DNA of 64,000 nt from Deltaproteobacteria bacterium (GCA_016935665.1 JAFGQN010000143.1:1-64000), one strand, 5' to 3'; numbered from the stretch's first letter, positions 29,476 through 47,374 are shown. Numbers and translations are program-made. The notes: generated from the letters alone by a model not told the origin.

Positions 29476-30402
29476 TCAATGCGCATCAATGCCCCACAGC
29501 ATCAACATGTTGTGCTCAAGTACCCGTAAAATTTCGTTCATGTATTCTCTTGCGGCTTTCACACTACCGGGAAGTGCAAAAACCTGCGTTTCATTTATCA
29601 CACCGGCCACTGACCGGCTGATGAGCGCCTGCGGCAAATCGGCCCCGTACTTCATGCGTATAAAATCCATAATGCCAGGAATTTCCTTGTGAAAAAGTGA
29701 CAACAGTGTCTCTGGTGTGATGTCTCTTTTGCCGATTCCCGTCCCACCGGTGGTCAACAGCACATCCACTTCCCGGGCGACACAATCGTTCACTTTGTAA
29801 CGCAACAACGTGGCGTCATCGCCAATAATGGCGGTGTCCACCTGTAAATGCCAAGGGGTTGACGAAAAAAACGACTTCAGCATTTCAACAATGGCGGGGC
29901 CGCTGCGATCTTTGTATTCCCCCTGGCTGGCGCGATCACTCAATGTGAGTACCATGATTTTCAACGGCCTTTGATGATGTGCCAGCGCGTCCCCCACCCT
30001 CAATCTTCCCGGCTCAACCACCCTGCAAAACACCCCATGTTGTGGCATGATACATTTTCCAGCCTCCGAAAAAATGGCGCATTCTGTCCCATGACATGTC
30101 TTGCCCAGCTGGGTGACTTCCAGCACCACGTCCCCCAGAGTCAATGTGTCTCTCACGGCGATTTGAGAAAAGTCGATGCCTTCAGTCGTAATATTCTCGC
30201 CAAACTCCCCCGATAAAAGCGACCGCCCCAACTCCGTCTCAAAATCGCGTATCTGCTCAATGGGCAACAGACTTATCTGTCGATGCCAATTGCCCGCGTG
30301 GGCATCGTCCACAATTCCCATCTGTGAAACGCGCACTTCGGACACAGGGGTCTTAGCCACCCCTTTTACTTTCGAGATATTCAAAGATACAACAGACGCC
30401 AA
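29476..30402 (-). CDS. MOSC domain fused to MogA/MoaB-type molybdopterin adenylyltransferase
   Basis: 308 residues from a TTG at 30402. GGGAG at the very end of moaC lies six bases before it, so it is preferred over an ATG at 30456 that would overlap moaC by about 50 bases. The N-terminal 140 residues are a MOSC domain: VAKTPVSEVRVSQMGIVDDA, LSGEFGENITTEGIDF, LGDVVLEVTQLGKTCH and MPQHGVFCRVVEPG. The C-terminal 160 residues are MogA/MoaB-like: VLTLSDRASQGEYKDRSGPA, DVLLTTGGTGIGKRDITPET and FALPGSVKAAREYMNEIL. The second part adenylylates molybdopterin; the MOSC part probably handles sulfur or the finished cofactor. Confidence 0.9.
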   Translation of the reverse strand: MASVVSLNISKVKGVAKTPVSEVRVSQMGIVDDAHAGNWHRQISLLPIEQIRDFETELGRSLLSGEFGENITTEGIDFSQIAVRDTLTLGDVVLEVTQLGKTCHGTECAIFSEAGKCIMPQHGVFCRVVEPGRLRVGDALAHHQRPLKIMVLTLSDRASQGEYKDRSGPAIVEMLKSFFSSTPWHLQVDTAIIGDDATLLRYKVNDCVAREVDVLLTTGGTGIGKRDITPETLLSLFHKEIPGIMDFIRMKYGADLPQALISRSVAGVINETQVFALPGSVKAAREYMNEILRVLEHNMLMLWGIDAH

Positions 30403-30403
30403 T

Positions 30404-30868
30404 TCAGTCTCCCTCTGCCGATGTTTTGTTTTTTTCCAAAAGGCGAATATCCTCAATCACCATGGATTTATCCACCGCCTTGCACATATCGTACACCGTA
30501 AGCAGGGCGACACTCACGGCGGTGAGCGCTTCCATTTCCACGCCCGTTTGCCCCACGCATTTTGCGGTGGCCACCACGTCCACCCCTGTATCGGTCAATG
30601 TGGCCTCTACATCCACCTTTGTGAGCTGCAGACTGTGACACAGCGGAATCAATTCCGGCGTTCGTTTGGCCGCCATGACCCCCGCCAATTCCGCAGTGAT
30701 ACACACATTCCCCTTTTTAACCGTGTTCTGCGCAATCTGGGCACGCGCCTTTGCGCCAAGCAAAATGCGACCTGCGGCTCTGGCCTGACGCACACTCTGC
30801 TCCTTCCGGGTTACGTCCACCATTTCCGGCCTGTTTTGCGCGTTGATATGCGACAATCGATTTTTCAT
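30404..30868 (-). CDS. moaC: Cyclic pyranopterin monophosphate synthase MoaC
   Basis: 154 residues, normal MoaC length. Motifs: MVDVTRKEQSVRQARAAGRI, GNVCITAELAGVMAAKRTPE, LIPLCHSLQLTKVDVEATL and VGQTGVEMEALTAVSVALLT with YDMCKAVDKSMVIEDIRLL. It converts the MoaA product to cyclic pyranopterin monophosphate. It starts directly after the moaA stop and carries the ribosome binding site of the next gene in its last codons. Confidence 0.97.
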   Translation of the reverse strand: MKNRLSHINAQNRPEMVDVTRKEQSVRQARAAGRILLGAKARAQIAQNTVKKGNVCITAELAGVMAAKRTPELIPLCHSLQLTKVDVEATLTDTGVDVVATAKCVGQTGVEMEALTAVSVALLTVYDMCKAVDKSMVIEDIRLLEKNKTSAEGD

Positions 30869-31666
30869 TCACCCCCCTATCTGATAAAATCGATGGCCAC
30901 TTTTGAGGCCGCATTCCGGTTTATGCTGCAACGCCATTTTAAACGCATTTTCAATTCCCAGCTGCCTCACTGAAAACGATTCATCACTAAAAAGGCAGGG
31001 AAAAATCACTCCGGCACTGCTCAACCGGAGTCGATTGCAGCGATCGCAATTGCCCCCTTCCCCGCCCATTACCGGCCAGAATTCACCTGTTTCGGTATTC
31101 ATCCTGCGAATGTAGCGCACATCAAATCCTTTATCTTGCCCATATGCGGCCACCGACTGGGCATGGGGTTCGCGGGGAGATTCCGTGACCACACAATTCA
31201 GTTTGATGCCTGTAAAACCGGCACGTACCGCAGCATCAATTCCTTCCAGCACGTGAGACAAATTACCGCCGCGAGTGATTTGCGCGTAGGCGCCGGCATC
31301 CAGTGTATCCAGACTGATATTCAGGCGTTGAAGTCCGGCGCGAATCAACGGGTCAGCGTACTGCCCCAAAAGCTGACCATTGGTGGTCATGGCCATATCC
31401 GAAATTCCATTGATGTCTGCCAGCTTTTTAACCAACGTTACAATGCCTCGGCGCACCAGCGGTTCTCCTCCTGTCAAACGCACTTTGCGAATGCCCAGTC
31501 TGGCCCCAAAAGCAACAACGTTTTCGATTTCCTCCAGGCTCAAAATGGCCGCACGCGGACTGGTCGCGATTCCTTCTGCGGGCATGCAGTAGGTGCATTT
31601 TAAATTACATCTATCGGTCACTGACACCCTCAGATATGTGATGGCGCGGCTATAGGCATCGAACAT
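30869..31666 (-). CDS. moaA: GTP 3',8-cyclase MoaA, short form
   Basis: 265 residues from the ATG at 31666, which overlaps the moeA end by 17 bases. The radical-SAM cluster motif is SVTDRCNLKCTYCMPAEG; RLTGGEPLVRRG and NISLDTLDAG follow. The second cluster motif is C-x2-C-x13-C in NCDRCNRLRLSSAGVIFPCL, and the protein ends in the conserved double Gly (FYQIGG). It is about 60 residues shorter than the usual 325. The stretch between the strand RYIRRMNTETG and the second cluster is much reduced. All catalytic motifs remain, so I take it as an active short variant acting first in molybdopterin synthesis. Confidence 0.92.
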   Translation of the reverse strand: MFDAYSRAITYLRVSVTDRCNLKCTYCMPAEGIATSPRAAILSLEEIENVVAFGARLGIRKVRLTGGEPLVRRGIVTLVKKLADINGISDMAMTTNGQLLGQYADPLIRAGLQRLNISLDTLDAGAYAQITRGGNLSHVLEGIDAAVRAGFTGIKLNCVVTESPREPHAQSVAAYGQDKGFDVRYIRRMNTETGEFWPVMGGEGGNCDRCNRLRLSSAGVIFPCLFSDESFSVRQLGIENAFKMALQHKPECGLKSGHRFYQIGG

Positions 31667-32918
31667 GGACCACTGTTCCCTTCTCAATTTCCTTCACGCC
31701 TTTTGGCACCGTTAAAATACCATCCGCATCACAAAAAGCACCGATGTGCGCAGACCCATGATAGTCGACAAGGGCCACTTTTCCCGGCCCGGTGAATCGC
31801 ACCGGAAGGCTGCTTTGCCGTTTGGCTTTTTTCCGGCGGAATGTGTCTGACAATTTTGCCATTATAATTGCGGGAGCAAAGTCATGTCCCATAAGCCTGT
31901 ACAGAAAGGGTTTTATAATCAATTCAAAAACCACCAGCGCGGACACCGGATTTCCAGGCAGCCCAAAGCAATACCGACCATTTTTTGACGTACCGAACAA
32001 GGTGGGCTTTCCCGGCTGCATCGCCACACTTTTATACTCAAAACGATAGCCTTCCGCCAACAGTGCCTCTGGAACAAAATCATAGGCGCCCATAGATACA
32101 CCGCCGGAAACAATGACCACATCGCACGCCTCCCGGGCTCTGGCAATGGCACTGCGGATTGCCTCAAGTGTGTCATCCACGATGCCATAATAATTTGGAA
32201 GCGCGTTCATCTGCTGCGTCTGGGCCACCACCTGGCAGCTGTTGCTGTTGCGAATCATCGCTCCTCCAATTGCTTTTTCGGGTTCCACCAGCTCACTCCC
32301 CGTGGCAATAATACCCACCACTGGACGGCGAATGACCGGAACATCGGCAAACCCCACCGCCGCAAGCATGGCAATATGGGGTGGTCCAAGCCGAATCCCC
32401 CGCTTTAGCACTATGTCGCCTTTGTGCACATCCTCTCCCTTTGTGCAAATATTGTCTTTGGTGCACTGGCCATCCGGTGCGACAACCATCACATCGCCAT
32501 CATCGGATAACTGTGTATGTTCCACCATTACCACACAATCCGCGCCGGTGGGCACCGGAGCTCCCGTCATTATTCGGACACACTGGCCCTCTCCGACAAC
32601 GATAGTGGGAACCTGGCCCGCTGGCACCTCCCCTGCAACGGTCAACGGTTTCGTTATATCCACACGCCGACAGGCGAAACCATCCATGGCGGATTTGGCA
32701 AACGGCGGCATATCCATATCGGATGCCACATCGGAGGCTAAAATACGATGCAACGCCTCACAGAGTGGCACCCGCTCCAACGGTAAGGTCACCGCTGCAC
32801 GCAGCGTAGCAGCCAGGGCTTCATTCAGAGATATATTCGCAGGAATCACATTACTCGCATTCTTTTTGGCGTCCACTGCAATTGCAAACGGCGCTGTCAG
32901 CCGATGACTTATTACCAT
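31650..32918 (-). CDS. moeA: Molybdopterin molybdenumtransferase MoeA
   Basis: 422 residues. Motifs: LPLERVPLCEALHRILASDV, DMPPFAKSAMDGFACR, CVRIMTGAPVPTGADCVVMV, VGIIATGSELVEP, CDVVIVSGGVSMGAYDFVPE and CFGLPGNPVSALVVFELIIK. MoeA inserts molybdate into adenylylated molybdopterin. It is the first gene of the operon moeA-moaA-moaC-MOSC/mogA-cysG. Genes for MoaD, MoaE and MobA are not in the window. Confidence 0.96.
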   Translation of the reverse strand: MVISHRLTAPFAIAVDAKKNASNVIPANISLNEALAATLRAAVTLPLERVPLCEALHRILASDVASDMDMPPFAKSAMDGFACRRVDITKPLTVAGEVPAGQVPTIVVGEGQCVRIMTGAPVPTGADCVVMVEHTQLSDDGDVMVVAPDGQCTKDNICTKGEDVHKGDIVLKRGIRLGPPHIAMLAAVGFADVPVIRRPVVGIIATGSELVEPEKAIGGAMIRNSNSCQVVAQTQQMNALPNYYGIVDDTLEAIRSAIARAREACDVVIVSGGVSMGAYDFVPEALLAEGYRFEYKSVAMQPGKPTLFGTSKNGRYCFGLPGNPVSALVVFELIIKPFLYRLMGHDFAPAIIMAKLSDTFRRKKAKRQSSLPVRFTGPGKVALVDYHGSAHIGAFCDADGILTVPKGVKEIEKGTVVHVRCL

Positions 32919-35250: not shown

Positions 35251-36295
35251 TCAGGCGTCATTTGAATCCGATGTGACGGGCGTCGCTGCAGGATTGGCAG
35301 ATGGCGAATCGGCGGATGGCGTATGACTTGCGCCTTCCTGAGGCGTGCTGTCTATCGGAGTCTTCTGGTCGTCTGCCAAATCACTGTCCATGCTGGGAGT
35401 TCCTTCTGCTGCGGGAAAAACATATGGCGGGAATGTCACCCATTTCAATGCGGCCACTTCTCCCTGACGGGCATAGTCGATGGCATCGCCCAGAATGCGT
35501 GCGGCCTCCTGAGGAGCATGAAATCCCATGGAATTTTCTGCGGCAATAAAATCGATACGCCATTGCGCTTTTCGCTGCAGCTCCAAAGATGCTTTAAGTT
35601 GTTCCTCGGTGGCACCATCTTTTTTGGCTTTTAGAATGGCATCAATCTGGTCCATCAGCGCCGCCCCGACCCGTTGCAGCAGCTTGTAGTTTTTATCCTG
35701 AATACCGTCGACTCTTGCCAGCAGTTCCTTTTCGCTCACGTGGTGGCAATTCTGACAGGCCCGATTTACGTTCAGCAACGGACTGCGCACCCAGTGATCG
35801 GAAATTTTTGTGGCGCCATTGCGCATGTACGGCAAGTGACAATCCGCGCAGGTAACGCCGCTGCGCGCATGAATTCCCTGAGACCACAACTCGAACTCCG
35901 GGTGCTGGGCTTTGAGAATCGGTGCGCCGGTCTCCTTGTGCTTATAATCAAAGAAACACTCACCCTAAAAACATGCGTTTGAGCCAGGGGTCGCGCTCAA
36001 TTTTTTCCTCAGGCAATGATTCTGATCCCCCATGACCGCCAAATCGGGTTTGGGTGGGTTGCGTCGTGCGTTTATACATATCGTACTGCCTGGGCCAGTT
36101 CTTCCCCCACTGTGCCGGGTCCGTCGTGTCTTCTGTCACTTCCTGCACACGAACGTACGGCGTGAGTGCTTCGTTTTTACGCTCAAAGATATTTACCAGC
36201 AACGCGGTAATGGATGCGGAAAGCACAGCAGTCACAATCAGCACACCGCCAATGACCAATCGAAAGTTCTGTTTCTTGTCGGCATCCGAAGTCAT
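35251..36295 (-). pseudogene. nrfA: nrfA (ammonia-forming cytochrome c nitrite reductase), internally deleted
   Basis: The minus strand opens with ATG 36295 (AAGGAG upstream) and encodes 111 residues matching the NrfA N-terminus: a signal anchor, then NPYVRV-type text ([20 protein letters not shown]), [20 protein letters not shown] and [12 protein letters not shown], where a TGA follows at 35962. Sequence matching the NrfA C-terminal half resumes in another frame at once: [37 protein letters not shown] and [20 protein letters not shown]. The central roughly 200 residues, with the catalytic CxxCK heme and two CxxCH hemes, are absent. The last two hemes remain. A Ser/Pro/Asp-rich tail closes the frame at 35251. 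The product cannot reduce nitrite. Confidence 0.85.
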
Positions 36296-36545: not shown

Positions 36546-36561
36546 TGGTACGCTGTTTGCT
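36546..36561 (+). promoter_or_regulatory. Sigma-54 (-24/-12) promoter for the cyclitol operon
   Basis: TGGTACGCTGTTTGCT matches the sigma-54 consensus TGGCACG-N4-TTGCW at all but one defined position. GG and GC are separated by exactly ten bases. The predicted start of transcription is near 36572, leaving about 64 bases of leader before the ATG at 36636. It implies activation by a bacterial enhancer-binding protein; no enhancer-binding protein gene is in the window. Confidence 0.7.
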
Positions 36562-36635
36562 CAAGTAACCCGTTGACACAAAGCGCTCTGCAAACTGACA
36601 AATGAATGCATTGAAAAACAGAGGAGAGAGTAAGC

Positions 36636-38591
36636 ATGAAACAGGCTTTGATTCTTGCGGCAGGCCGGGGTGCGCGCCTTGATAGACCCAATACTCCCAA
36701 GCCGCTGGTGGAAGTGGGCGGGCAGCCGATGATTGTCCGTCTGATAAATCAACTGAAACAACAGAACGTGGAGCGTATTCACATTGCCGTCGGGTACGAA
36801 TCCAAACGCATCATGCATGCGCTATCCAGCTATTTCGGGTACGAGACCGGACTGGCGTTTCACAAAGTGGAAGATTGGCAAAAAGGAAGTGCCCGAAGTA
36901 TACTGGCCGCCAGAAAATGGATTCCCGGCAATTTTATACTGGCGATGGCCGACCACGTATTTGACGATTCACTTATCGCTGAAATAACGAATGCGGCCCC
37001 GGGGGCCAACGAAGTTCTGGCCATGGTGGACAATCGTCCCATCCCCCCGCAAATATTCAAAACAGCGCTGAAAGTGCGACAAACAGAATGGGGAAGCATC
37101 GAGGATGTTGGCGTTTCACTGACGGATGCGACGGGCATTGACGCGGGTCTTTTCGCAGCGTCCAATGTACTATTCGATGTACTCTCCACCCTCACCCGCC
37201 ACGGAAGAAAAGGCGAACTGATGGATGGACTCCGCGTCCTGGCGCGAACAGAAAGTCTGTGTGCGCGTCTCATCAGCGATGCAAACTGGTTTGATGTGGA
37301 TACACCGGCCGATGTCATTCGCGCGGAAATGCACCTTCGTAAAATCAAACGTGAACACAGCGTGCGCCCAGTTGCACGCGACCCGCAGGTCCCGATGTCC
37401 GCCGGCATGGATTACCGGCTGAAAACCGATCATTGCACACAGATGATTGTCCAAAATGGACTGGTGGAAAGTCCCGAAAAGTATAACATCATTCCGCGCC
37501 AGAGTGCATCGTCGCCTGTTTTTCTGTTCACCGATGAAACTGTTTCGACGTTGTATGGCCAGGCATTTGCGGCACGGTTGCGCGAACAGGGATATGATAT
37601 TCATTCAATCGTTTTGCCAGATGGTGAGGAATCCAAAACCATTTCAAATTATGTCTATCTTGTGGAACGGGTCCTCAGCCGGGGCGTGGATGAACGTTCC
37701 GTCTTCATTTCACTGGGGGGCGGTGTGGTTTGCAACGTATGTGGTTTTGTCGCATCCACTATTTATCGAGGTCTGTCATTGATTCACATTCCAACTACTC
37801 TCATGGCGCAGGGAGATGCCGCCATCAGCCACAAGCAGGCCATCAACGGGCATTTTGGCAAAAACATGGTGGGCGCCTACTATCCGCCCGATAAAGTAAT
37901 CATCGATATAAACGTACTTAAAACGCTTTACAAAAGACAAATACAGGATGGCTTTGCAGAAATTGTCAAACACGCACTGGGACAGGATCCATCACTTGCC
38001 GAATATCTTTTGTCTTACGGAGATGATATTTGTTCGCTGCCATTTCTCGATTATGTCATTCAGCGGAACATTGCCCTCAAATGTGAGCTGGTACGCGAGG
38101 ATCCCAGGGAATTGAATGACGCCATGGTGCTGCAATATGGACATACCGCGGGACACCCACTGGAGCATCTGTCGGGCTATGCGTTGTACCACGGAGAAGC
38201 GGTTGCCATGGGCATGATGGTTGCTGTCCGAGTGGCACGTCACCTGGGCGCCTGCGATGATCGGCTTGTACATCTGCACATGGAATTACTTCAAAAATTT
38301 GGATTACCAACAGAGATTCCCCGCGAAATAGAGGTATCCGACTTCATAGACGCATTGCGGTTTAACAAACGACACCTCATGGAAGGCTCTCAAATGGTGT
38401 TATTGCAGGATATTGGCCGACTTTGGAAAGTGGATGGGAATACTGCCATTCCCGTTTGTGAAAATGTAATTCGAAAGGCGTTTTTAGAGACTCAAAATTC
38501 CCAATGCTCTCTTGAATTTTGGTCCCGCAGCGATTCGCGAACGGATGCATTTCATCATACAGCTGCCCAATGGAACGCAGTTGGATCATGA
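36636..38591 (+). CDS. Fusion: cyclitol/inositol-phosphate cytidylyltransferase-like domain + sugar-phosphate cyclase (2-deoxy-scyllo-inosose synthase-like)
   Basis: 651 residues. Residues 1-240 are a nucleotidyltransferase: MKQALILAAGRGARL, TPKPLVEVGGQPMIVRLIN, FILAMADHVFDDSLI, GIDAGLFAASNVLFD and NWFDVDTPADVIRAEMHL. The pattern is closest to the inositol-1-phosphate cytidylyltransferase half of DIPP synthases. Residues 265-620 are a dehydroquinate-synthase-superfamily cyclase. Its signatures GGGVVCNVCGF (361-371, Asn where dehydroquinate synthases have Asp) and HKQAIN...GKNMVGAYYPP (from 399) resemble 2-deoxy-scyllo-inosose synthase. Candidate metal ligands Glu442, His503 (GHTAGH) and His519 (YHGEAVAMGM) are kept. 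The stop overlaps the next ATG (ATGA). The exact substrate is inferred. Confidence 0.85.
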   Translation: MKQALILAAGRGARLDRPNTPKPLVEVGGQPMIVRLINQLKQQNVERIHIAVGYESKRIMHALSSYFGYETGLAFHKVEDWQKGSARSILAARKWIPGNFILAMADHVFDDSLIAEITNAAPGANEVLAMVDNRPIPPQIFKTALKVRQTEWGSIEDVGVSLTDATGIDAGLFAASNVLFDVLSTLTRHGRKGELMDGLRVLARTESLCARLISDANWFDVDTPADVIRAEMHLRKIKREHSVRPVARDPQVPMSAGMDYRLKTDHCTQMIVQNGLVESPEKYNIIPRQSASSPVFLFTDETVSTLYGQAFAARLREQGYDIHSIVLPDGEESKTISNYVYLVERVLSRGVDERSVFISLGGGVVCNVCGFVASTIYRGLSLIHIPTTLMAQGDAAISHKQAINGHFGKNMVGAYYPPDKVIIDINVLKTLYKRQIQDGFAEIVKHALGQDPSLAEYLLSYGDDICSLPFLDYVIQRNIALKCELVREDPRELNDAMVLQYGHTAGHPLEHLSGYALYHGEAVAMGMMVAVRVARHLGACDDRLVHLHMELLQKFGLPTEIPREIEVSDFIDALRFNKRHLMEGSQMVLLQDIGRLWKVDGNTAIPVCENVIRKAFLETQNSQCSLEFWSRSDSRTDAFHHTAAQWNAVGS

Positions 38592-39340
38592 AACGATCAA
38601 CAGCAGTGGTAACCGGCGCGGGTAGCGGTATTGGTCGAGAAACGGCGTTATGGCTCGCGCGAAAAGGCGTACAGGTATTTGCAGTTGGCAGAAAACCCGC
38701 CATGCTGAACGGGACTGCATCGTTGGATACTACCCATTCATTCATTTTTCCACTTTGCGCGGATGTAACTTTGGAAGAGGAATTGGAAGCGGCGTTTACC
38801 CCATTGAAAAAAGTAGATATTGTAGTAGTAAACGCGGGCATTTGTGAAACAGCAGCCATTAACGCCTCGAAGGCTGCAACCGTCTGGCAGCGTGTCATTC
38901 ACACCAATCTCACGGGAAGCTGGAACACGCTGCATACACTGGCGGACAAACTAACAGATGGCGCCCGAGTTGTTCTGGTATCATCGGGCCTTGGAAAACT
39001 GGGTCGGGCGCACTATACGGCATACTCCGCCAGCAAACACGGCATGCTCGGAGTAATGAAATCTCTTGCACTGGAATGGGCCCCAAAACAGATTCGAGTT
39101 AACGCGGTATGTCCAGGATGGGTAGAAACAGAAATGGCGATGGCCGATTTAAGGCGAGCTGCTAAACGCAATAAAACCAGTATAGACATCGAAGGTATTC
39201 GTGCCACAGAGCGCATCCCCATCGGCCGTTTCGTCCAGGCAAAGGAAGTGGCCAATCTTATTGGCTGGCTATGCAGCGACGAGTCGTCTGGAATAACCGG
39301 TCAGGCTTACAATATTTCAGGAGGAGAATTTGGATTATGA
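38588..39340 (+). CDS. Short-chain dehydrogenase/reductase
   Basis: 250 residues from the ATG at 38588, which overlaps the cyclase stop as ATGA. Classical SDR motifs: VVTGAGSGIGRETALWLARK (cofactor binding), VVVNAGICETAAIN (NAG), VVLVSSGLGKLGRAHYTAY with catalytic Ser and YSASK, and VNAVCPGWVETEMAM. It ends SSGITGQAYNISGGEFGL. In this operon it most likely reduces the keto group of the cyclase product to a cyclitol or oxidises a ring hydroxyl. The direction and the cofactor preference cannot be read from the sequence with certainty. Confidence 0.88.
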   Translation: MKRSTAVVTGAGSGIGRETALWLARKGVQVFAVGRKPAMLNGTASLDTTHSFIFPLCADVTLEEELEAAFTPLKKVDIVVVNAGICETAAINASKAATVWQRVIHTNLTGSWNTLHTLADKLTDGARVVLVSSGLGKLGRAHYTAYSASKHGMLGVMKSLALEWAPKQIRVNAVCPGWVETEMAMADLRRAAKRNKTSIDIEGIRATERIPIGRFVQAKEVANLIGWLCSDESSGITGQAYNISGGEFGL

Positions 39341-40266
39341 AACGCTTACAGCTTGCCACAACACACTCACCATTTGGTGAAAGCAACGTCACTGTTATTG
39401 GGCAGGTGACGCACGATCGCTATGACCAGCTCTATCCCGGCGGATGTGCATACTACGCTGCCATCGCGCTTAAGGGACTGGGAGCCAATGTGTCTCTTGT
39501 CAGCAGTGTTGGTCAGGACTTCCTTTTTGCACGCCACCTGGAAGGATTGCGTTGCATCATGCGGATTGGTGATAAAACAACCGAGTTTTGCAATGTGTAT
39601 CCATCCGTGGGTCCGCGAATTCAATACGTTCAGAATTGCGCTCCCAATATCACTGATGAGCTTCTGCCCCAGGGATGGCGCAGTGCTGACTTATGCATTC
39701 TCGCACCGGTCATGGGTGAACTGAATGAGGTGGTCTGGTCAAAAATTCGCGGGGCTCGGCATACTGCAATATTTCTTCAGGGCTATTTGAAAAAGGCCCA
39801 TACACAAGTTCGAAACGGACGACGTCTTGTCGTTCCATTTGATGGAGAATTCAATTGGGAGATGGTCAGGGATGTCGATTCTGCATTTTTAAGCAGGGAA
39901 GATATCGAGCTGTTCGCGTCCACTGAATTCCTCAGAAAATTAACGACCAGGGTGCGAACAGTTGCGGTCACAGATGGCGAAAGAGGCTGCAGAATATATC
40001 ATGAAGACACCCTTGTTGACGTTGACATATTTCCGGTAGATGCAGTGGATTCAACTGGCGCAGGAGATACGTTTGGTGCTGCAACTGCCATGGCACTGGC
40101 CCACGGATATCCGATTGAATCCGCTGCCAGACTCGGTTCCGCTGCTGCATCAGTTGTGGTTGAAGGTGTGGGGGGAACGCGGCTGGACCGAATCAAATAT
40201 GCCTTTGAGCGACAACATTGCATTTTTGCCAAAACCAGCAGCAATTCACACTCTCTGGCCGTCTAA
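39337..40266 (+). CDS. PfkB-family sugar/cyclitol kinase
   Basis: 309 residues from the ATG at 39337, again an ATGA overlap with the upstream stop; the Shine-Dalgarno AGGAGG lies at the end of the SDR gene. PfkB family features are the N-terminal PGGCAYYAAIALKGLGANVS glycine patch and the C-terminal catalytic motif VDAVDSTGAGDTFGAATAMA with the base Asp in GAGD. It probably phosphorylates the cyclitol made by the two upstream enzymes, which would give the substrate for the cytidylyltransferase domain. A role with another sugar is possible. Confidence 0.85.
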   Translation: MKRLQLATTHSPFGESNVTVIGQVTHDRYDQLYPGGCAYYAAIALKGLGANVSLVSSVGQDFLFARHLEGLRCIMRIGDKTTEFCNVYPSVGPRIQYVQNCAPNITDELLPQGWRSADLCILAPVMGELNEVVWSKIRGARHTAIFLQGYLKKAHTQVRNGRRLVVPFDGEFNWEMVRDVDSAFLSREDIELFASTEFLRKLTTRVRTVAVTDGERGCRIYHEDTLVDVDIFPVDAVDSTGAGDTFGAATAMALAHGYPIESAARLGSAAASVVVEGVGGTRLDRIKYAFERQHCIFAKTSSNSHSLAV

Positions 40267-40323: not shown

Positions 40324-42063
40324 CTAATCTCGTAGCGTCGCTGACGGCGATCTATCCAGAATGGATCGTATCCTTTGGGCCAAACGGTCTTTCCTGAGCG
40401 GTTTGTTGCATATCTCCACAATTCCAGATGACTTTATATCCTCGGGAGATGACGCTTCGGCGTAGCCGGTGCAAAGTACAATGGGCAAATCTCGAATCTG
40501 TTTAACTTTTCGCGCCAGTTCCAATCCGGTAATGTGGGGCATCGCCTGGTCTGTAATCAACAGATCATACTTATTGGGATCTGCCTGGAAACAGGCCAAC
40601 GCTTCCTCTGGTTCGGTATGGCATTCAACTGTATAACCGTACTCTTCGAGAATTCTTTTCCCGAGCTGAGCCAGCATCTCTTCGTCATCCACCAGCAGAA
40701 TTCGCTCGGTGCCACGATCTGCCACACAGATTGGTTGCGCAGGATGTCTGGAAAACGTGCGTGTACTTTTGGGGATATAAACTTCGAAAAGAGACCCATT
40801 GCCCAAAGAACTTTCAACCACAATATTTCCATCATGCTGTCGCACCAGCCCGAACACAACGGAAAGCCCCATCCCGGAACCCGTGCCATGCTTGCGTGTG
40901 GTAAAATACGGCTCAAAAATATGCTTCATGGTTTCTTCCTGCATACCACTGCCCGTGTCACGCACGGTAATACGCGTATACTTACCGGCAGGACTTTCGC
41001 CAAGGCGTCCTCTGAACGGCGTTTTTCGTTCAACATCCTCCAGCCCGATATGCAGGGTTCCCTTTTCTCCCATGGCATATACCGCATTTGTTCCCAGATT
41101 CATAAGGATCTCGTGAATCGCTGTAACGTCTGCCTCAGTGGTTGTGTTCTCCGGTCGTAAATCTATGTGAAAAGTAATAGAGGGTGGTGTGGCGCCGCGC
41201 AACAGTGTTGCGGTTTCCCGGATAACATTGGAGAGGTACACCGACTGGCGGCTTCCTTTTTGAGGTCGACCGAAAGTGAGTATCTGACGTACCAGATCTC
41301 TGGCTCGTTCTGACGCTGAAATAATCATATTCATATTTTCGTAAAGCTCCGAGCCGGACTCAACCACATCGCGGGATAAATCCGCATATCCCAAAATAGC
41401 GGCAAGAATATTGTTAAAATCATGGGCGATACCGCCTGCGAGATGCCCTATTGCCTCCATCTTTTCTGCCTGCCTAAGCTGCTGCTCCCGTTCCTCCACC
41501 AGATTGTAGGCTTTTCTGGTCTCCGTGATATCGATGACAGCCACAAGCAATTCGAGGTTGTTAGCTTCGTTGGCGGGCGGATGAGAAGCTTCAATACGAA
41601 CAAACGTCGTCCCGGATTGATTGGGTTTCAACTCAAGCTCAAACGTTTTTTGATGGGGAGTTTCAAAAAAAGATCGATATCGACTGCGAAAAAGCTGTTC
41701 GCTGTCTCTGGTCAGAAATCTTGAAAACGGCGCTCCGATGAGAGCGTAGGCAGGCGTATTCAGATATTTCTCCAGCAGGATATTGGCATCGACTATCATT
41801 GCCGAAGAATTGAGTACCATGTATCCCACTGGTGCACTTTCAAACAGGTTCTGATATCGGGCTCTCGTTGTCTCAAGCGAATGCTGGGTTATCCTCAGTT
41901 CCTCGTTTTGCAGTTCCAGTTCCATCTGATAAATCTGAAGTTCGGAGACCAGGCTTTCAATTTCCGGAGCGACTAGTGTTTTAGGGCCTGAACTGCAGGA
42001 AAGCGCGAGAAGATGCATTGCTTTGTCTCGAAGCTCTCGGGAACGGCTATTGGTCGGTTCCAT
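40324..42063 (-). CDS. Hybrid sensor histidine kinase (PAS, HisKA, HATPase, receiver)
   Basis: 579 residues from the ATG at 42063, which overlaps the degraded upstream gene by 17 bases. The N-terminal helix RELRDKAMHLLALS ... LVSELQIYQMELELQNEELR leads into a PAS domain (QNLFESAPVGYMVLNSSAMI). The phosphoacceptor is His214 in GGIAHDFNNILAAILGYADL. ATPase boxes are LMNLGTNAVYAM (N box), VRDTGSGMQEE (G1) and GTGSGMGLSVVFGLVRQHDG (G2). A receiver closes the protein with LLVDDEEMLAQLGKR and the phosphoacceptor Asp in DLLITDQAMPHITG. No membrane segment is visible, so it is a cytoplasmic sensor. No output partner is adjacent. Confidence 0.9.
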   Translation of the reverse strand: MEPTNSRSRELRDKAMHLLALSCSSGPKTLVAPEIESLVSELQIYQMELELQNEELRITQHSLETTRARYQNLFESAPVGYMVLNSSAMIVDANILLEKYLNTPAYALIGAPFSRFLTRDSEQLFRSRYRSFFETPHQKTFELELKPNQSGTTFVRIEASHPPANEANNLELLVAVIDITETRKAYNLVEEREQQLRQAEKMEAIGHLAGGIAHDFNNILAAILGYADLSRDVVESGSELYENMNMIISASERARDLVRQILTFGRPQKGSRQSVYLSNVIRETATLLRGATPPSITFHIDLRPENTTTEADVTAIHEILMNLGTNAVYAMGEKGTLHIGLEDVERKTPFRGRLGESPAGKYTRITVRDTGSGMQEETMKHIFEPYFTTRKHGTGSGMGLSVVFGLVRQHDGNIVVESSLGNGSLFEVYIPKSTRTFSRHPAQPICVADRGTERILLVDDEEMLAQLGKRILEEYGYTVECHTEPEEALACFQADPNKYDLLITDQAMPHITGLELARKVKQIRDLPIVLCTGYAEASSPEDIKSSGIVEICNKPLRKDRLAQRIRSILDRSPSATLRD

Positions 42064-42969
42064 GATCTTTGACCTTTGGCGAAGCAGTTGTATCTGCGAT
42101 ATCTGTGATATTTGAAAATGTAGTATATACCTCGTACAGGTCAAATGTTCCTTGTTTAAAAAGTGGCACCGAGTTTACCATTAACCAGCGCATCTCATCC
42201 TGTTCACTTTTGCGAATACCCATTATGCGATTGCGTACTGGCGCTGTTGTGTCCAATGCAACCGTAGATGGATGCGCCAACTTCAAGCAATTCGTTATCT
42301 GCATTAAAGGCCTGTAATCCGCTAACCAGTGATGCAATATCGGAAAATTCGCTCAGTCGGGCGTTAAACAGTCGCAAAGCGGCGGGGTTTATATCAACAA
42401 TTTTTCCGCTTGCATCCTGAAAGATAGTTAGTTCAGACAGTGTGTCAAATATTACCCGGCATCGCGATTTACCACTGTTCTTTTTTCAAAAGTCAGAATT
42501 TCTAACCGCACAACACTCTGAATCAACCGTATTTCGATCTGTGTTCCAACGGACATCCATCAATGAATGGGTCGCATGCTGCAACGCGGTTAAGTCGACA
42601 AACGTTGCCAGCACACCGAAGTATGCCTCAGGTCCAATTCGATAGGGCAGAATACGCATCAGGTACTGCCGATGGTCTTTGGTATGCACCACTTTTTCAC
42701 GCGCGATACCTTCGTTATGAACCGACGTCATTTCATCAACGGGAAAGACATCGATCAAATGATGGGCCAAATGAGTTACCGGACGACCAACGTCTGTTTC
42801 GAGAAGCTAAAAAAACATTTCTGATTTCCGCAAAGAATCGGCGAATCGAAAGATTCTCATCCAGACCGACGGCAGACGCACCGACTCCAATATAGTGCCC
42901 TGGCGAAACAGCCATGGATGTGTTTTCAAGCGCCATTTCAGCGTCCCTGAACTTGTTGCTTTTATTCAT
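42047..42969 (-). pseudogene. Degraded CheB/CheR/PAS fusion gene
   Basis: Pieces of one chemotaxis-type fusion protein lie in several frames. The first (ATG 42969) has the start of a CheB methylesterase, HYIGVGASAVG, joined directly to PAS text LDENLSIRRFFAEIRNVF, so the CheB and CheR bodies are deleted. A frameshift at the A7 run near 42809 follows, then DVGRPVTHLAHHLIDVF and QYLMRILPYRIGPEAYFGVL. After a stop near 42486 another frame reads IFQDASGKIVDINPAALRLF, and a further shift leads to ALDTTAPVRNRIMGIRKSEQ, ending at 42047. At least three frame breaks and one large deletion make it a pseudogene. The downstream hybrid kinase is intact. Confidence 0.75.
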
Positions 42970-43163
42970 AAGTTCGTCCTATCCGTCTGGCCAAAAACCT
43001 AAAGGCGGAAATAGCGCACAAGAGGTACACCATTGCGCGTTCGTCTCTCCAGAGTATGGTTATAGTAATTCTATTACCGTAAACGTTGATGTAAAACCAA
43101 TTGAGTTAAATTGTTGCGACTTGCCTGGCGGGAAACGCAAGCTCCTGTCGCTGGTATGAGAAA

Positions 43164-43970
43164 TTGATTGACATGAAATCCGTGCACGACAATACCCCGG
43201 AGGCGATTCTTGAACTTTCTGTGCTCAAGCACATGGTTGACAAAAAAACCATTGCACTGGAGGCGGCTCTGACTGAAGTAACTCGTTCAAACACTGAACT
43301 GGAGCAATTCGCGTTTATCGCATCCCACGAACTTCAGGAGCCTTTACGCAAAATTGTCTCATTCGGAAACCTGCTTTCCGAATACTATGGACATCAATTG
43401 GATGCAAAGGGAACAGACTATCTTGACAGAATGAAAAGTGCTGCAAAGAGAATGCAATCGCAAATCGACAATCTTCTGCGGTATTCCCGCATATCCACGG
43501 AGGATATAACCTTCGAGCCTGTGAATTTGAACGAGTTGGTAAAAAAAATGGCCATTGATTTTGATGAAGAAATACGGTCTGACGGCGGCATACTGAATAT
43601 TGACCAACTTCCCGAGATTCAGGGAGACGCTTTGCAGCTGCGGCAGCTCTTTTTAAATCTTATCGGCAATGCCATCAAATTTCGTCACCGCAATAGACCG
43701 CTTGTCATCAATATAAACACAACGTTCCATGACAAAGAGGTTATCATTAAAATTTCTGACAATGGTATTGGATTTGAACAGTCTCAGTCCGAAAGTATTT
43801 TTGGGATATTCCATCGCCTACATGGGGACACCAGGTATTCCGGTTCGGGTATTGGGCTGGCCATTTGTCGTCGAATTGTGAGAAGACATTCGGGCGCCAT
43901 ATGTGCATTTGGCAATCCGGGCAAGGGCGCCTGCTTCCATATAACATTCAGCAAATATCCAATTCGCTAA
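43164..43970 (+). CDS. Sensor histidine kinase, phytochrome-type HisKA, no sensor domain
   Basis: 268 residues from a TTG at 43164; an ATG at 43173 is equally possible. The phosphoacceptor is His55 in FIASHELQEPLRKIVSFGNL, the motif of bacteriophytochrome and light/redox kinases. The ATPase part has QLRQLFLNLIGNAIKFRH (N box), IKISDNGIGFEQSQSESIFG (G1/F) and GSGIGLAICRRIVRRHSGAI (G2). There is no N-terminal sensor domain; it could be cut off by rearrangement or work with a separate partner. The receiver gene at 44118, 150 bases downstream, is a likely partner, since phytochrome-type kinases are often encoded next to small receivers of that kind. Confidence 0.82.
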   Translation: MIDMKSVHDNTPEAILELSVLKHMVDKKTIALEAALTEVTRSNTELEQFAFIASHELQEPLRKIVSFGNLLSEYYGHQLDAKGTDYLDRMKSAAKRMQSQIDNLLRYSRISTEDITFEPVNLNELVKKMAIDFDEEIRSDGGILNIDQLPEIQGDALQLRQLFLNLIGNAIKFRHRNRPLVININTTFHDKEVIIKISDNGIGFEQSQSESIFGIFHRLHGDTRYSGSGIGLAICRRIVRRHSGAICAFGNPGKGACFHITFSKYPIR

Positions 43971-44117
43971 CGTTACAGAAAAAAGAAAATTGTCGGATTT
44001 CTGCATTATTCATTCCGTACGTTCGATTCGTTGCACACCGCGGGCCAACAGGTATATTTAATTGTATTCATAATGCTCCAAACTGCGCCATTTCGTTTTG
44101 TTCAGGGGGAAACAAAA

Positions 44118-44732
44118 ATGCCACGCGAAAAGACCATTCTGCTCAGAGTACTTGCCGTGGAAGACGATTGTGATGACAAGGTATTACTGCAGGAATTGTT
44201 TAAACAGTCAACGGCTCACAATTATAGAGTGACGTATACGACTTCACTGCATGAGGCAGTTGAAATGCTGAATATGGCGCTCTTTGATGTGATACTTTGT
44301 GATTTGAATCTGACCGATTCCACAGGTATGGATACCTGCATGAAAATCCACGAAAAGGCACACAATACCCCCGTATTGATACTTACAGGATATGACGATG
44401 TGGATTGGGCCAAAAAAGCATTGCGATGCGGAGTTCAGGACTATGTTGTCAAATCCGATCTCAATCTGCGCTGTCTTGAGCGGGCGATAACATTTGCCAT
44501 AGAAAGAAACGCGCTGATGGCCAGGCAAAAAAAAGCACGCGAGGAGATTCAGTCTCCAAAGGGCATGTTACCCATATGCGCCTACTGCAAAAAAATTCGA
44601 GATGAGGATGGGTACTGGGAGCAAATAGAAACGTATATCGCCAACCGTTCAGGTGCTTTTTTTACCCATAGCATCTGCCCAGAATGCGCAGAACGGGAAT
44701 ATGGAATAACAGATATGGCAGAGAACAAATAA
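44118..44732 (+). CDS. Response regulator: receiver domain with C-terminal Cys4 (zinc-type) tail
   Basis: 204 residues from the ATG at 44118 (AGGGGGA upstream); the frame has an earlier ATG at 44031 with no ribosome binding site. The receiver has acidic EDDCDD, the phosphoacceptor Asp in VILCDLNLTDS and a Thr/Lys pair in LILTGYDD and VVKSDL. The type is close to the small Rcp1-like receivers. The C-terminal 50 residues hold LPICAYCKKIRDEDGYWEQI and HSICPECAEREYG, that is Cys154, Cys157, Cys187 and Cys190. This tail is common on deltaproteobacterial signalling proteins and probably binds a metal. It probably pairs with the kinase at 43164. Confidence 0.88.
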   Translation: MPREKTILLRVLAVEDDCDDKVLLQELFKQSTAHNYRVTYTTSLHEAVEMLNMALFDVILCDLNLTDSTGMDTCMKIHEKAHNTPVLILTGYDDVDWAKKALRCGVQDYVVKSDLNLRCLERAITFAIERNALMARQKKAREEIQSPKGMLPICAYCKKIRDEDGYWEQIETYIANRSGAFFTHSICPECAEREYGITDMAENK

Positions 44733-44997
44733 AAAGCAACCATCCCAAAAAAATACCAGGCAGCACAATGATATTTCTCTCACTATCTACCTGACACAGA
44801 TTTGGGTTTCTAATTTGCATGGGTTGCAAAGCCCATTGGCACTTGGAAGGAATTGCCACCAGTCTGGATGTTACCCAGCTTCGTCAATCGGTGAGCATAA
44901 AACCGAAACACCATTGCACTGAAAAAAAAAATTTGCAGGCAATGCATCGCTGTATAACAGCAACACTTAAGGCTATTTGACATGCCTTTGCCTTTGC

Positions 44998-46179
44998 TCA
45001 ATGTGGTTTAATCTCGAATTTTCTGCGAAGAATCTGAATAGGTTCCTGAATACCAACAAGGCGTCGATAATTATGAAGACGCGCCAGATATACGTCCGTG
45101 ATTTTCGTCCCTTTGCTTAGCAATAATCTTTCATCCTGCGATTCGACATTCTGATTCAGAATATCCCCATTGATGAGATGTTTTACTCGCACCTCAAGGC
45201 ATTGCATGTTTTCCATTGCCTGTTTGACTTTGTACTCCTCCAGAATCTGTTCAATTCGTTGGGTGATTGTAATATCATAAATTGTATTTCTGGTTCGCAA
45301 CACGCCAAATGCGTCTTTGTCACTCATTCCCCGCAGTTCCAGCTCCACCAGATCGGCAAGGGTTTTCATCACTTTTATGTCAAAAGGCAGCGTGTCAACC
45401 TGCTGAGAGGAATACTCGATTTCTGGAATCCCGGCCGCAACTGCTGTTAGCCTGGATATATTTTCCATGCGGGGGATATGCGCCAGTAATCGACCGCTCA
45501 ATTCGGGAATGTCCATAACCGCATCCTTCTCCGCTTCACTCAAAGTTGCAATATCCCTCATCTTCTGCCGAAGCTCAGGAGGTTGAGTCAGTGCACCCAA
45601 TGGCGCCATCATCGCCGCCACTTCCAGTTCCCATGCATTTTCCACTTCCAGGATCTTTGATGTCAATTGAACGTAATCCCTGATCTTCTCCGCCTTTGCT
45701 ATCAGGACCGGCTCCGAAATGGAAAGCAGTTCCGTAAGTAATTTTATACTACCGGACAGCGTTTTCTCCATAATTTCCTTCTCGGCAGTAACCAATCTGT
45801 ATTGTCGAACGCCGAGCGCCAATGCGGCAAGCAAATCTGTGGCTGGACACGGTTTGGTCAGAAATCGAAAGATAGCGCCCACGTTCACCGCTTGCATTGC
45901 TGTTTCCTGATCAGCATTTCCCGTAAGCATCATTCGGGTAGATTCGGGAGCGATTCGTTTTACCTTCTTTAAAAACTTTACTCCATCCATCACCGGCATT
46001 CTCATATCGGCAACAATCACTGCAAAAGGCCCGGATTCTTCAATTGTCTCCAGTCCCTTCACTCCTCCCTCTGCAGTGAAAACATTGTATCTCTGCCGCA
46101 ATCCCCTGACATATCCAGCAAGGACGTTGGGTTCGTCATCCACCAGCAGTATCTTTTCTTTTCTTGTCGAATAATCCAT
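44998..46179 (-). CDS. Response regulator with degenerate HD-GYP-like output
   Basis: 393 residues. The receiver has LLVDDEPNVLAGYVRGLRQR and phosphoacceptor Asp in VIVADMRMPVMDGVKF, with LTGNADQETAMQAVNVGAIF and the KPC motif (FLTKPC). The C-terminal domain has the length and helix pattern of RpfG-type HD proteins. The metal-binding His-Asp pair is missing: the site expected to read HD reads AMMAPLGALTQPP. It is therefore unlikely to hydrolyse cyclic di-GMP and may act by protein contact. It follows the receiver-HDOD gene by 16 bases. Confidence 0.78.
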   Translation of the reverse strand: MDYSTRKEKILLVDDEPNVLAGYVRGLRQRYNVFTAEGGVKGLETIEESGPFAVIVADMRMPVMDGVKFLKKVKRIAPESTRMMLTGNADQETAMQAVNVGAIFRFLTKPCPATDLLAALALGVRQYRLVTAEKEIMEKTLSGSIKLLTELLSISEPVLIAKAEKIRDYVQLTSKILEVENAWELEVAAMMAPLGALTQPPELRQKMRDIATLSEAEKDAVMDIPELSGRLLAHIPRMENISRLTAVAAGIPEIEYSSQQVDTLPFDIKVMKTLADLVELELRGMSDKDAFGVLRTRNTIYDITITQRIEQILEEYKVKQAMENMQCLEVRVKHLINGDILNQNVESQDERLLLSKGTKITDVYLARLHNYRRLVGIQEPIQILRRKFEIKPH

Positions 46180-46194
46180 CCAATAGTCTCCTGG

Positions 46195-47373
46195 TCAATT
46201 GGATATACTCGCCAACCAGCGCTGAACGTTCTCGCCAAGGCCACATTCTTCAATATACGCCATATTAATTGACCCTGCTCCGTCCATCTCGTGACATGCC
46301 CCATTCGCGACGTGTACCGCAGTCAATGCGGAGCATCCAACAGAAGGACAGAATTCAGGATTGTGATGAAACGCCACTGCCTCAACTATGGCGTCCGGCA
46401 ATCCCCATACTCCTAAAAGATACGCCCCAATTACAGAGTGATTTGTCCCAATGATTTTTTCCTCCGCTTCAATCAGGGATATTTTTTCCGATTCCAAAAG
46501 TCGCAGTACCTCACTGTATTTTTCAGGAAGATTCGCTGCAAAAATGATTTTCCCGCAGTCGTGCAGCAAACCGGCAGTCATGGCGTCGTCCACCTCTTCT
46601 TTGGTTTTATCCTCCAGTTTGACTATGGTCTGTGCATTGCGGCCAACTTTGCCACTGTGGCTCCATAACGCTTCGAGAGAAAAACCTCTTATTGGTATAT
46701 CCGTATTGAACTGACTAAAAACATTGGCAGCCAATACCAACGAACTGACATTCTCCAGTCCAAGGTAGTTGACCGCCATGTCAACGGTAGTAATACGTCG
46801 TCGAATGCCAAAAAAAGCGGAGTTCACCAGTTGAAGTATCTTGGCTGTCATTGCAACGTCTTTTGCAATCAATCTGGAAATCAATTGCATTGAGGGACTC
46901 TCTTCTTTTAGCTCTTCAATCAGTTCGAGATATATTTTCGGCATGCTGGGCATTTGCTCCATCCTGGACGACAGGGATTTTAGAGCTTCATCGGACAACA
47001 AATCCCGAAGATTGCAAGCTCTCGCGACCGTTTGTTTCAAAATCTCGGGATTACATGGTTTAGATAAATATTGATGTGTTTTGCCGATAGCCTTGAAAAC
47101 AGCTTCCTTTTCCGATTGTCCCGACAAAACAATTCTCACAGTATTGGGAAATCGACGTGTCACTTCTGTCAGCAGTTGAGCCCCGTCCATCCCGGGCATT
47201 CGCATATCGGAGACAATGACATCGTAGGGCGCTTCTGCTTCTTCCATCAGCCTCAATGCCTCCTCTCCGCCGCCGGCATACGACATATCCCATTCTTTTC
47301 GCATCGAACGCAGCATCCGCTTAAGGCCCTGCAATACATTGGGCTCATCATCGACAAACAGAATCCGTTTCAT
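46195..47373 (-). CDS. Response regulator: receiver + HDOD domain
   Basis: 392 residues. The receiver starts ILFVDDEPNVLQGLKRMLRS with the phosphoacceptor Asp in VIVSDMRMPGMDGAQLL and the FLSKPC-type motif (QYLSKPCNPEILK). The HDOD domain follows: LPSMPKIYLELIEEL-like text, ISRLIAKDVAMTAKILQLVN, AVNYLGLENVSSLVLAANVF and AGLLHDCGKIIFAANLPEKY. HDOD proteins act in signalling without known enzymatic activity. The start is two bases downstream of the interrupted kinase gene, so the two belong together. Confidence 0.88.
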   Translation of the reverse strand: MKRILFVDDEPNVLQGLKRMLRSMRKEWDMSYAGGGEEALRLMEEAEAPYDVIVSDMRMPGMDGAQLLTEVTRRFPNTVRIVLSGQSEKEAVFKAIGKTHQYLSKPCNPEILKQTVARACNLRDLLSDEALKSLSSRMEQMPSMPKIYLELIEELKEESPSMQLISRLIAKDVAMTAKILQLVNSAFFGIRRRITTVDMAVNYLGLENVSSLVLAANVFSQFNTDIPIRGFSLEALWSHSGKVGRNAQTIVKLEDKTKEEVDDAMTAGLLHDCGKIIFAANLPEKYSEVLRLLESEKISLIEAEEKIIGTNHSVIGAYLLGVWGLPDAIVEAVAFHHNPEFCPSVGCSALTAVHVANGACHEMDGAGSINMAYIEECGLGENVQRWLASISN

Positions 47374-47374
47374 T

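Follow-up and report, generated by a model that had tools for sequence, protein, structure and literature searches.

To our knowledge, 2-deoxy-scyllo-inosose (DOI) synthases occur only in the pathways to 2-deoxystreptamine aminoglycoside antibiotics. The mechanism by which they release phosphate is established for their superfamily. They act on glucose 6-phosphate and leave a ketone product (PMC6170601). For the inositol lipids of Bacteroidetes, a combination of myo-inositol-phosphate synthase (MIPS), a nucleotidyltransferase of the inositol-phosphate cytidylyltransferase (IPCT) type and a CDP-alcohol phosphotransferase has been proposed (PMC9246714). Here we describe a three-gene operon at 36546-40266 of a 64,000-nucleotide stretch from Deltaproteobacteria bacterium (GCA_016935665.1, JAFGQN010000143.1:1-64000; the whole stretch is called the window), in which an IPCT-like domain is fused to a sugar-phosphate cyclase and followed by a short-chain dehydrogenase/reductase (SDR) and a PfkB-family kinase. 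The chemistry is known and the arrangement is new: the cyclase is a sister of the DOI synthases, and its fusion to an IPCT-like domain belongs to a conserved operon of Myxococcota that is not dedicated to antibiotics.

We consider it probable that this operon is a self-contained route to a CDP-activated cyclitol, probably a deoxy one, and a pathway of this type is well supported. A narrower proposal, which we hold tentatively and at slightly less than even weight, is that the fusion-made product is CDP-2-deoxy-inositol or a close analogue, an undescribed compound derived from glucose 6-phosphate that would serve as a donor of membrane or glycan head groups in Myxococcota. According to the model, the cyclase would take a hexose 6-phosphate (glucose 6-phosphate being the likeliest) and close it to a deoxy-inosose by NAD/Zn-dependent phosphate elimination as in DOI synthase. 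The SDR would reduce the ketone of the deoxy-inosose to a deoxy-inositol, the PfkB kinase would re-add phosphate to give deoxy-inositol phosphate, and the N-terminal domain of the fusion would move CMP from CTP onto it, yielding CDP-(deoxy)inositol. SDR and kinase would be needed because the cyclised product is a ketone that no longer carries the phosphate. The CDP-cyclitol would then probably be used by a CDP-alcohol phosphotransferase encoded elsewhere, leading to a lipid or glycan head group. We infer these reactions, together with their substrate, stereochemistry, nucleotide and acceptor, from the families and conserved residues of the enzymes. Since cyclase, kinase and nucleotidyltransferase each separately indicate a cyclitol, the four-step logic put forward in the first-pass annotation of this DNA (cyclise, reduce, phosphorylate, cytidylylate) is supported. 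Membership of the SDR family is too general to speak for or against a cyclitol substrate.

The fusion and its gene order are not due to chance, as they are found again in further families and classes of the phylum. When the same fusion was sought in other genomes, it was found in at least 36 genomes of Myxococcota, which are bacteria of predatory type from soil and sea, 19 in a class-level set and 17 in a phylum sample (some of the loci are cut by contig ends). The carriers include genomes matched to three cultured predators of the bradymonads, Bradymonas sediminis FA350, Persicimonas caeni YN101 and Microvenator marinus V1718 (PMC7188933, PMC11509652). The SDR gene lies directly 3' of the cyclase in all 32 assessable loci, two unfused loci counted, and the PfkB gene comes next in 28 of 31. 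The three genomes without an adjoining PfkB gene each encode a clear ortholog elsewhere (313, 233 and 216 bits; their other PfkB genes reach 42 bits at most); the neighbourhoods of these unlinked genes contained unrelated genes and no partner enzyme. Two loci (L112 and L113, genomes G352 and G299) consist of cyclase, SDR and PfkB genes without the nucleotidyltransferase domain. Judging from translations, G352 has a bifunctional IPCT-DIPPS gene elsewhere, and in G299 an IPCT-like gene adjoins MIPS. On the minus strand of L191:772-2376 (G352:C386), an apparently full IPCT is joined to a DIPPS-like CDP-alcohol phosphotransferase in one bifunctional Myxococcota gene.

Outside Myxococcota, the distribution was examined in plasmids, where no match covered 80% of the fusion, and by a contig pattern scan of low sensitivity, which returned fusions in the two congeners of the source genome only. 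To the first-pass annotation such a fusion was not known from earlier descriptions, and our library searches, with papers under other licences outside their reach, likewise retrieved no paper describing a cyclase-cytidylyltransferase fusion.

Kinship with DOI synthases is most evident in the cyclase domain. Its RGLSLIHIPTTLMAQGDAAISHKQAINGHFGKNMVGAYYPP segment has the DOI synthase BtrC as best match in PDB, ahead of every dehydroquinate synthase (DHQS), and the DOI-synthase signatures noticed at first pass (GGGVVCN and HKQAIN...GKNMVGAYYPP) are real. Asn367 (in GGGVVCN), Ser398 and Gln401 are as in DOI synthases and differ in the DHQS, aminoDHQS, EEVS and EboD sequences compared (cyclase residues 264, 268 etc. 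are numbered as in A. nidulans DHQS). The residues for NAD, Zn and phosphate are kept (R130, D146, K152, K161, N162, E194, K197, K250, H271, H275 and H287). In all fusion copies covering the sites, R264 is replaced by Gly or Ala and N268 by Gln, and the GGK motif of AroB is replaced by S/G-H-K. All 29 DHQS compared have R264 and N268; the DOI synthases compared have Gly or Ala at 264 and Glu at 268 (FEYGHT in BtrC). This DOI synthase set comprised BtrC (PDB 2d2x) and four plasmid-borne relatives; the BtrC sequence was read through a PDB search query in which BtrC segments were set in the window cyclase, a construct put to no other use.

In a maximum-likelihood tree whose references were DHQS, DOI synthases, EEVS and EboD, authentic EVS not being among them, the fusion cyclases, the two unfused cyclases and the DOI synthases formed one clade (100/100), which was still recovered after the active-site columns were taken out (97/92). 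Within it, DOI synthases and fusion cyclases are sister clades, and the fusion does not lie inside the DOI synthase clade. A placement among ordinary dehydroquinate synthases, which the first-pass annotation had named as a result that would refute its reading, was not recovered. In the plasmid collection, too, an annotated DOI synthase was the best match, and AroB came after it.

These results bear on a reading in which the cyclase would be an unusual second DHQS serving the shikimate pathway, with fusion and operon incidental. Family-level similarity is highest to DHQS in Pfam and NCBIfam: the TIGR01357 aroB model scores 285 bits (hmmscan; 259-292 bits among the fusion copies listed), which is under its curated cut-off of 305. 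DHQS structures also top the fold search. The AlphaFold model of the cyclase (pLDDT 86.6) has the DHQS/DOI synthase fold, and the search with the fusion did not tell the two apart (TMt 0.85-0.90 for both). Against a second DHQS stand the absence from every fusion copy of the R264 and N268 common to all DHQS compared, the grouping with DOI synthases in the tree, and the host genomes themselves. A separate AroB was detected in the source genome and in 17 of 18 fusion genomes tested, where it accompanies chorismate synthase; in G012 (95% complete), which carries the fusion, neither AroB nor chorismate synthase was found. Because a separate AroB is present in 17 of 18 genomes and G012 is also without chorismate synthase, the cyclase is not the host dehydroquinate synthase. 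Judged by its sequence, it is not a dehydroquinate synthase, and we regard a second-DHQS role as highly improbable. As a separate observation, the AroB matches of bradymonads (G264, G150, G213 and other f36 genomes) lie within long open frames of about 730-780 aa, which probably are multi-domain and in some genomes are near chorismate synthase.

A further possibility is that the cyclase uses sedoheptulose 7-phosphate in the manner of EEVS or EVS, which would lead to a CDP-carbasugar comparable to GDP-valienol. In its favour, Asamizu and colleagues reportedly described in 2012 an EVS from a myxobacterium. Acarbose and validamycin, moreover, are made with the succession of cyclase, reductase, kinase and nucleotidyltransferase (PMC9200736). 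Against it, the EVS clade has been described as one that would be taken for DHQS (PMC5133447). EEVS and EboD differ from the fusion at K250, R264 and N268, with H275 differing too in EEVS, and they branch far from it. The marks of sedoheptulose 7-phosphate cyclases (K250 substituted, Asp268, and Pro275 in EEVS) are absent from the fusion, which has K250, Gln268 and H275. ValA reached 129 bits in the cyclase comparison, far under the 205 bits of DOI synthase. We consider a C7 substrate unlikely.

The two remaining activities point to a cyclitol as well. For the nucleotidyltransferase domain, the first-pass assignment as IPCT-like is backed by sequence: with the domain profile A2, IPCTs were the top three PDB matches (2xme, 2.2e-36, and 4mnd, 1.1e-35, both A. 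fulgidus IPCT; 4jd0, 1.5e-22, T. maritima IPCT). R14, K22 and D106 are invariant in the fusion domain and correspond to the catalytic Arg, Lys and Asp of IPCT named in PMC12275187, and alignment with 2xme revealed the IPCT motifs GxGxRL...PKPLV, MxDH, DxGxF and WxDVDT. CTP and a cyclitol phosphate would thus be the predicted substrates. As for the kinase, taken at first pass to perform the phosphorylation step, the nearest structures are myo-inositol kinases. Its AlphaFold model (pLDDT 91.5) gave the best E-value in PDB to the T. kodakarensis myo-inositol kinase 3w4s (2.7e-19, against 3.0e-16 for the best other family member) and the highest TM-score to the T. maritima myo-inositol kinase. D27, Q148-x3-K152 and D244, the catalytic Asp in GAGD, are invariant. 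In the archaeal myo-inositol kinase, inositol is contacted by D12, Q136-x3-R140 and D219 (PMC5931981); the Asp and Gln residues of our kinase match these by motif and spacing, not by residue-level alignment, with Lys in place of Arg.

Several observations weigh against the proposed pathway. i) The fusion cyclases have an invariant Gln at 268 (LQYGHT), unlike the Glu of DOI synthases, and long branches separate the two clades; the substrate may therefore not be glucose 6-phosphate. ii) The kinase has only about 19% identity to inositol kinases, and its fold likeness to other ribokinase-family enzymes is not much lower. iii) The source genome has MIPS and another IPCT-like gene, so that it can in principle already make CDP-inositol. 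iv) Neither a transferase nor any other consumer of a CDP-cyclitol was linked to the operon in about 35 loci read, and flanking genes are not conserved across loci. The first of these points touches the possibility that a different hexose 6-phosphate, an amino or epimeric one for instance, is cyclised, giving a different CDP-cyclitol. This would be a variant of the proposed pathway, and the probability we assign to it overlaps with that of the pathway as a whole. The Gln at a position occupied by Glu in DOI synthases and by Asn in DHQS, together with the separate clade, speaks for such a variant, but no positive evidence points to any particular alternative substrate; we treat it as possible, though doubtful. 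The additional IPCT-like gene of the source genome (L004:1348-2199, plus strand, G000:C45) stands alone and is divergent from a gene for a diacylglycerol-kinase-type lipid kinase.

If a CDP-cyclitol is made, its acceptor step would have to be sought outside the operon. Of the four CDP-alcohol phosphotransferases encoded in the source genome, two are PgsA-like, one is PssA and one is DIPPS-like; the family (PF01066) is present in 144 of 144 relatives. The DIPPS-like protein, P0004, is matched in all 19 fusion genomes, but likewise in 95 of the 125 genomes that lack the fusion. Because it occurs in most of the latter as well, it is a candidate only: its use of a CDP-cyclitol is plausible, and it could equally use CDP-inositol. 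The N-terminal nucleotidyltransferase half of P0004 is without recognisable motifs, likewise in relatives, and degenerate bifunctional proteins of this kind are widespread in the class. The source genome contains, in addition, a fusion of a nucleotidyltransferase with a class V aminotransferase (L003:325-2337, minus strand; G000:C133:46368-47054), which is PntC-like (cf. PDB 6pd1) and hints at a possible phosphonate head-group route.

The layout of the operon is compact (Table 1). The three genes, their ATGA overlaps and the sigma-54 site all lie where the first-pass annotation had placed them, and the gene families it named are borne out by Pfam matches. Genes 2 and 3 each have their start codon inside the stop of the preceding gene. 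In gene 1, NTP_transf_3/NTP_transferase spans aa 4-145, DHQ_synthase aa 325-437 and DHQS_C aa 439-578; gene 2 has the SDR motifs TGAGSGIG and YSASK. The promoter sequence TGGTACGCTGTTTGCT, starting at 36546, is the sole zero-mismatch match to TGGYACGN4TTGC within 64 kb. It scores 12/12; when the 250 bp upstream were shuffled 5000 times, no shuffle reached this value. The two congeners, G001 and G002, have sigma-54 sites that also score 12/12, 60 nt ahead of gene 1, and the distance from site to start codon is 60-90 nt in the window and both congeners; an RpoN gene is present in the source genome. In other families the site is mostly not kept, with only 11/12 candidates outside the genus (L063 and L065).

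Table 1. Positions of the operon features in the window and of the candidate phosphotransferase elsewhere in the source genome
Feature	Coordinates	Strand	Basis or remark
Sigma-54 (RpoN) type promoter, -24/-12 TGGTACG-N4-TTGCT	36546..36561	+	Consensus match
Shine-Dalgarno GGAG, gene 1	36623..36626	+	Read from sequence
Gene 1, cytidylyltransferase-cyclase fusion, 651 aa	36636..38591	+	Not conserved beyond residue ~620
Gene 1 N-terminal domain, aa 1-245, IPCT-like nucleotidyltransferase	36636..37370	+	Pfam PF12804/PF00483, PDB matches
Gene 1 C-terminal domain, ~aa 269-618, sugar-phosphate cyclase	37440..38489	+	Pfam PF01761 + PF24621, trees, model
Gene 2, classical SDR oxidoreductase, proposed ketone reductase	38588..39340	+	Pfam adh_short_C2 2.5e-47
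Shine-Dalgarno AGGAGGAG, gene 3	39319..39326	+	Read from sequence
Gene 3, PfkB/ribokinase-family kinase, proposed cyclitol kinase	39337..40266	+	Pfam PF00294 3.4e-26
DIPPS-like CDP-alcohol phosphotransferase P0004	L145:1240-2322 (G000:C11)	-	Nearest to DIPPS half of IPCT/DIPPS

Likeness to aminocyclitol antibiotic pathways, remarked upon at first pass, is confined to the cyclase; at none of the loci did we recognise an aminotransferase or a glycosyltransferase. This matters for the idea that the operon is a leftover or forerunner of an aminocyclitol antibiotic cluster, in favour of which the sister-group relation of the cyclase to antibiotic-pathway DOI synthases could be cited. But beside none of the loci was an aminotransferase, glycosyltransferase, transporter or resistance gene recognised; for aminotransferases and glycosyltransferases this was read from open reading frame lists, not all flanking frames having been scanned against family libraries. 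Moreover, the flanks vary by genome and are alike only among close relatives (about 35 loci read), while the three genes stay joined across families and classes. By contrast, plasmid DOI synthase loci (Sodalis, Streptomyces SAT1 and NBC_00853) contain aminotransferase, glycosyltransferase, PIG-L or radical SAM genes. An antibiotic module hence seems very improbable to us. On another plasmid, that of Streptomyces sp. NBC_01454 (L130:2330-5318), a DHQS-family gene is clustered with genes for a thiamine-dependent enzyme, a BadF-type ATPase and an inositol monophosphatase, which looks like an uncharacterised, cyclitol-like cluster.

Some neighbouring genes of the window deserve mention. Just 3' of the operon (40324-49096), genes of the histidine kinase, hybrid sensor and response-regulator type are densely packed. 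At 35251-36295 on the minus strand, an nrfA-like gene for a cytochrome c nitrite reductase is disrupted: its N-terminal part ends in frame at '...KRMFLG', the frame shifts, and the C-terminal part resumes with the middle of the protein gone, indicative of a pseudogene or an assembly collapse. A MoaA-like gene of 272 aa (30869-31687, minus strand) matches two separate stretches of its 336-position model, which points to an internal deletion, and the open reading frame beside it (29476-30456) joins a MOSC-type to a MoaB-type domain.

If our proposal of CDP-2-deoxy-inositol is true, chemistry of the DOI synthase type would operate outside antibiotic biosynthesis, in the metabolism of the cell envelope. 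If a CDP-cyclitol is made, nucleotide-activated cyclitols would be reached by a further route next to that through MIPS/IPCT, the need for a reductase and a kinase would be explained, and a new nucleotide as well as a new envelope component would be predicted. Such a product would also bear on the origin of antibiotic DOI synthases.

Compared with known systems, the operon combines features that are otherwise found apart. With DOI synthases of 2-deoxystreptamine pathways such as BtrC, the cyclase shares the SxKQAxN...GKN motif, Asn367 in place of the Asp of DHQS, the loss of R264 and the retention of K250; unlike them, it forms its own sister clade with Gln instead of Glu at 268, is fused to a cytidylyltransferase, and has SDR and PfkB neighbours rather than an aminotransferase, outside an antibiotic cluster. 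The nucleotidyltransferase resembles the IPCT of IPCT/DIPPS enzymes, which are the closest structures over the full domain, have the Arg, Lys and Asp that are invariant here, and are fused as well, but to the CDP-alcohol phosphotransferase DIPPS and not to a cyclase. A PntC-type nucleotidyltransferase-aminotransferase (PDB 6pd1) belongs to the same broad nucleotidyltransferase family and is likewise fused to an enzyme of its own pathway, with a different partner and a different substrate. The kinase resembles the myo-inositol kinases T. kodakarensis MI3K and T. maritima TM0415, the best structural matches of its model, in a similar acceptor-site motif (Q-x3-K/R) and in the catalytic Asp, and departs from them in its low identity (about 19%) and in its putative acceptor, which would be the cyclase product after reduction.

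At the level of whole pathways, the MIPS route of Bacteroidetes also would obtain a CDP-cyclitol from glucose 6-phosphate by means of a cyclase and an IPCT-like enzyme; there the phosphate is kept, so that neither SDR nor kinase is required, the genes are separate, and the CDP-alcohol phosphotransferase is linked. The acarbose and validamycin routes (AcbC/AcbL/AcbU/AcbR and ValA/ValB/ValC; PMC9200736) cyclise, reduce, phosphorylate and nucleotidylate to an NDP-cyclitol in the way we propose for the operon, but from a C7 substrate, to a GDP product, with nucleotidyltransferases and kinases of other families, and from genes that sit in an antibiotic context with glycosyltransferases.

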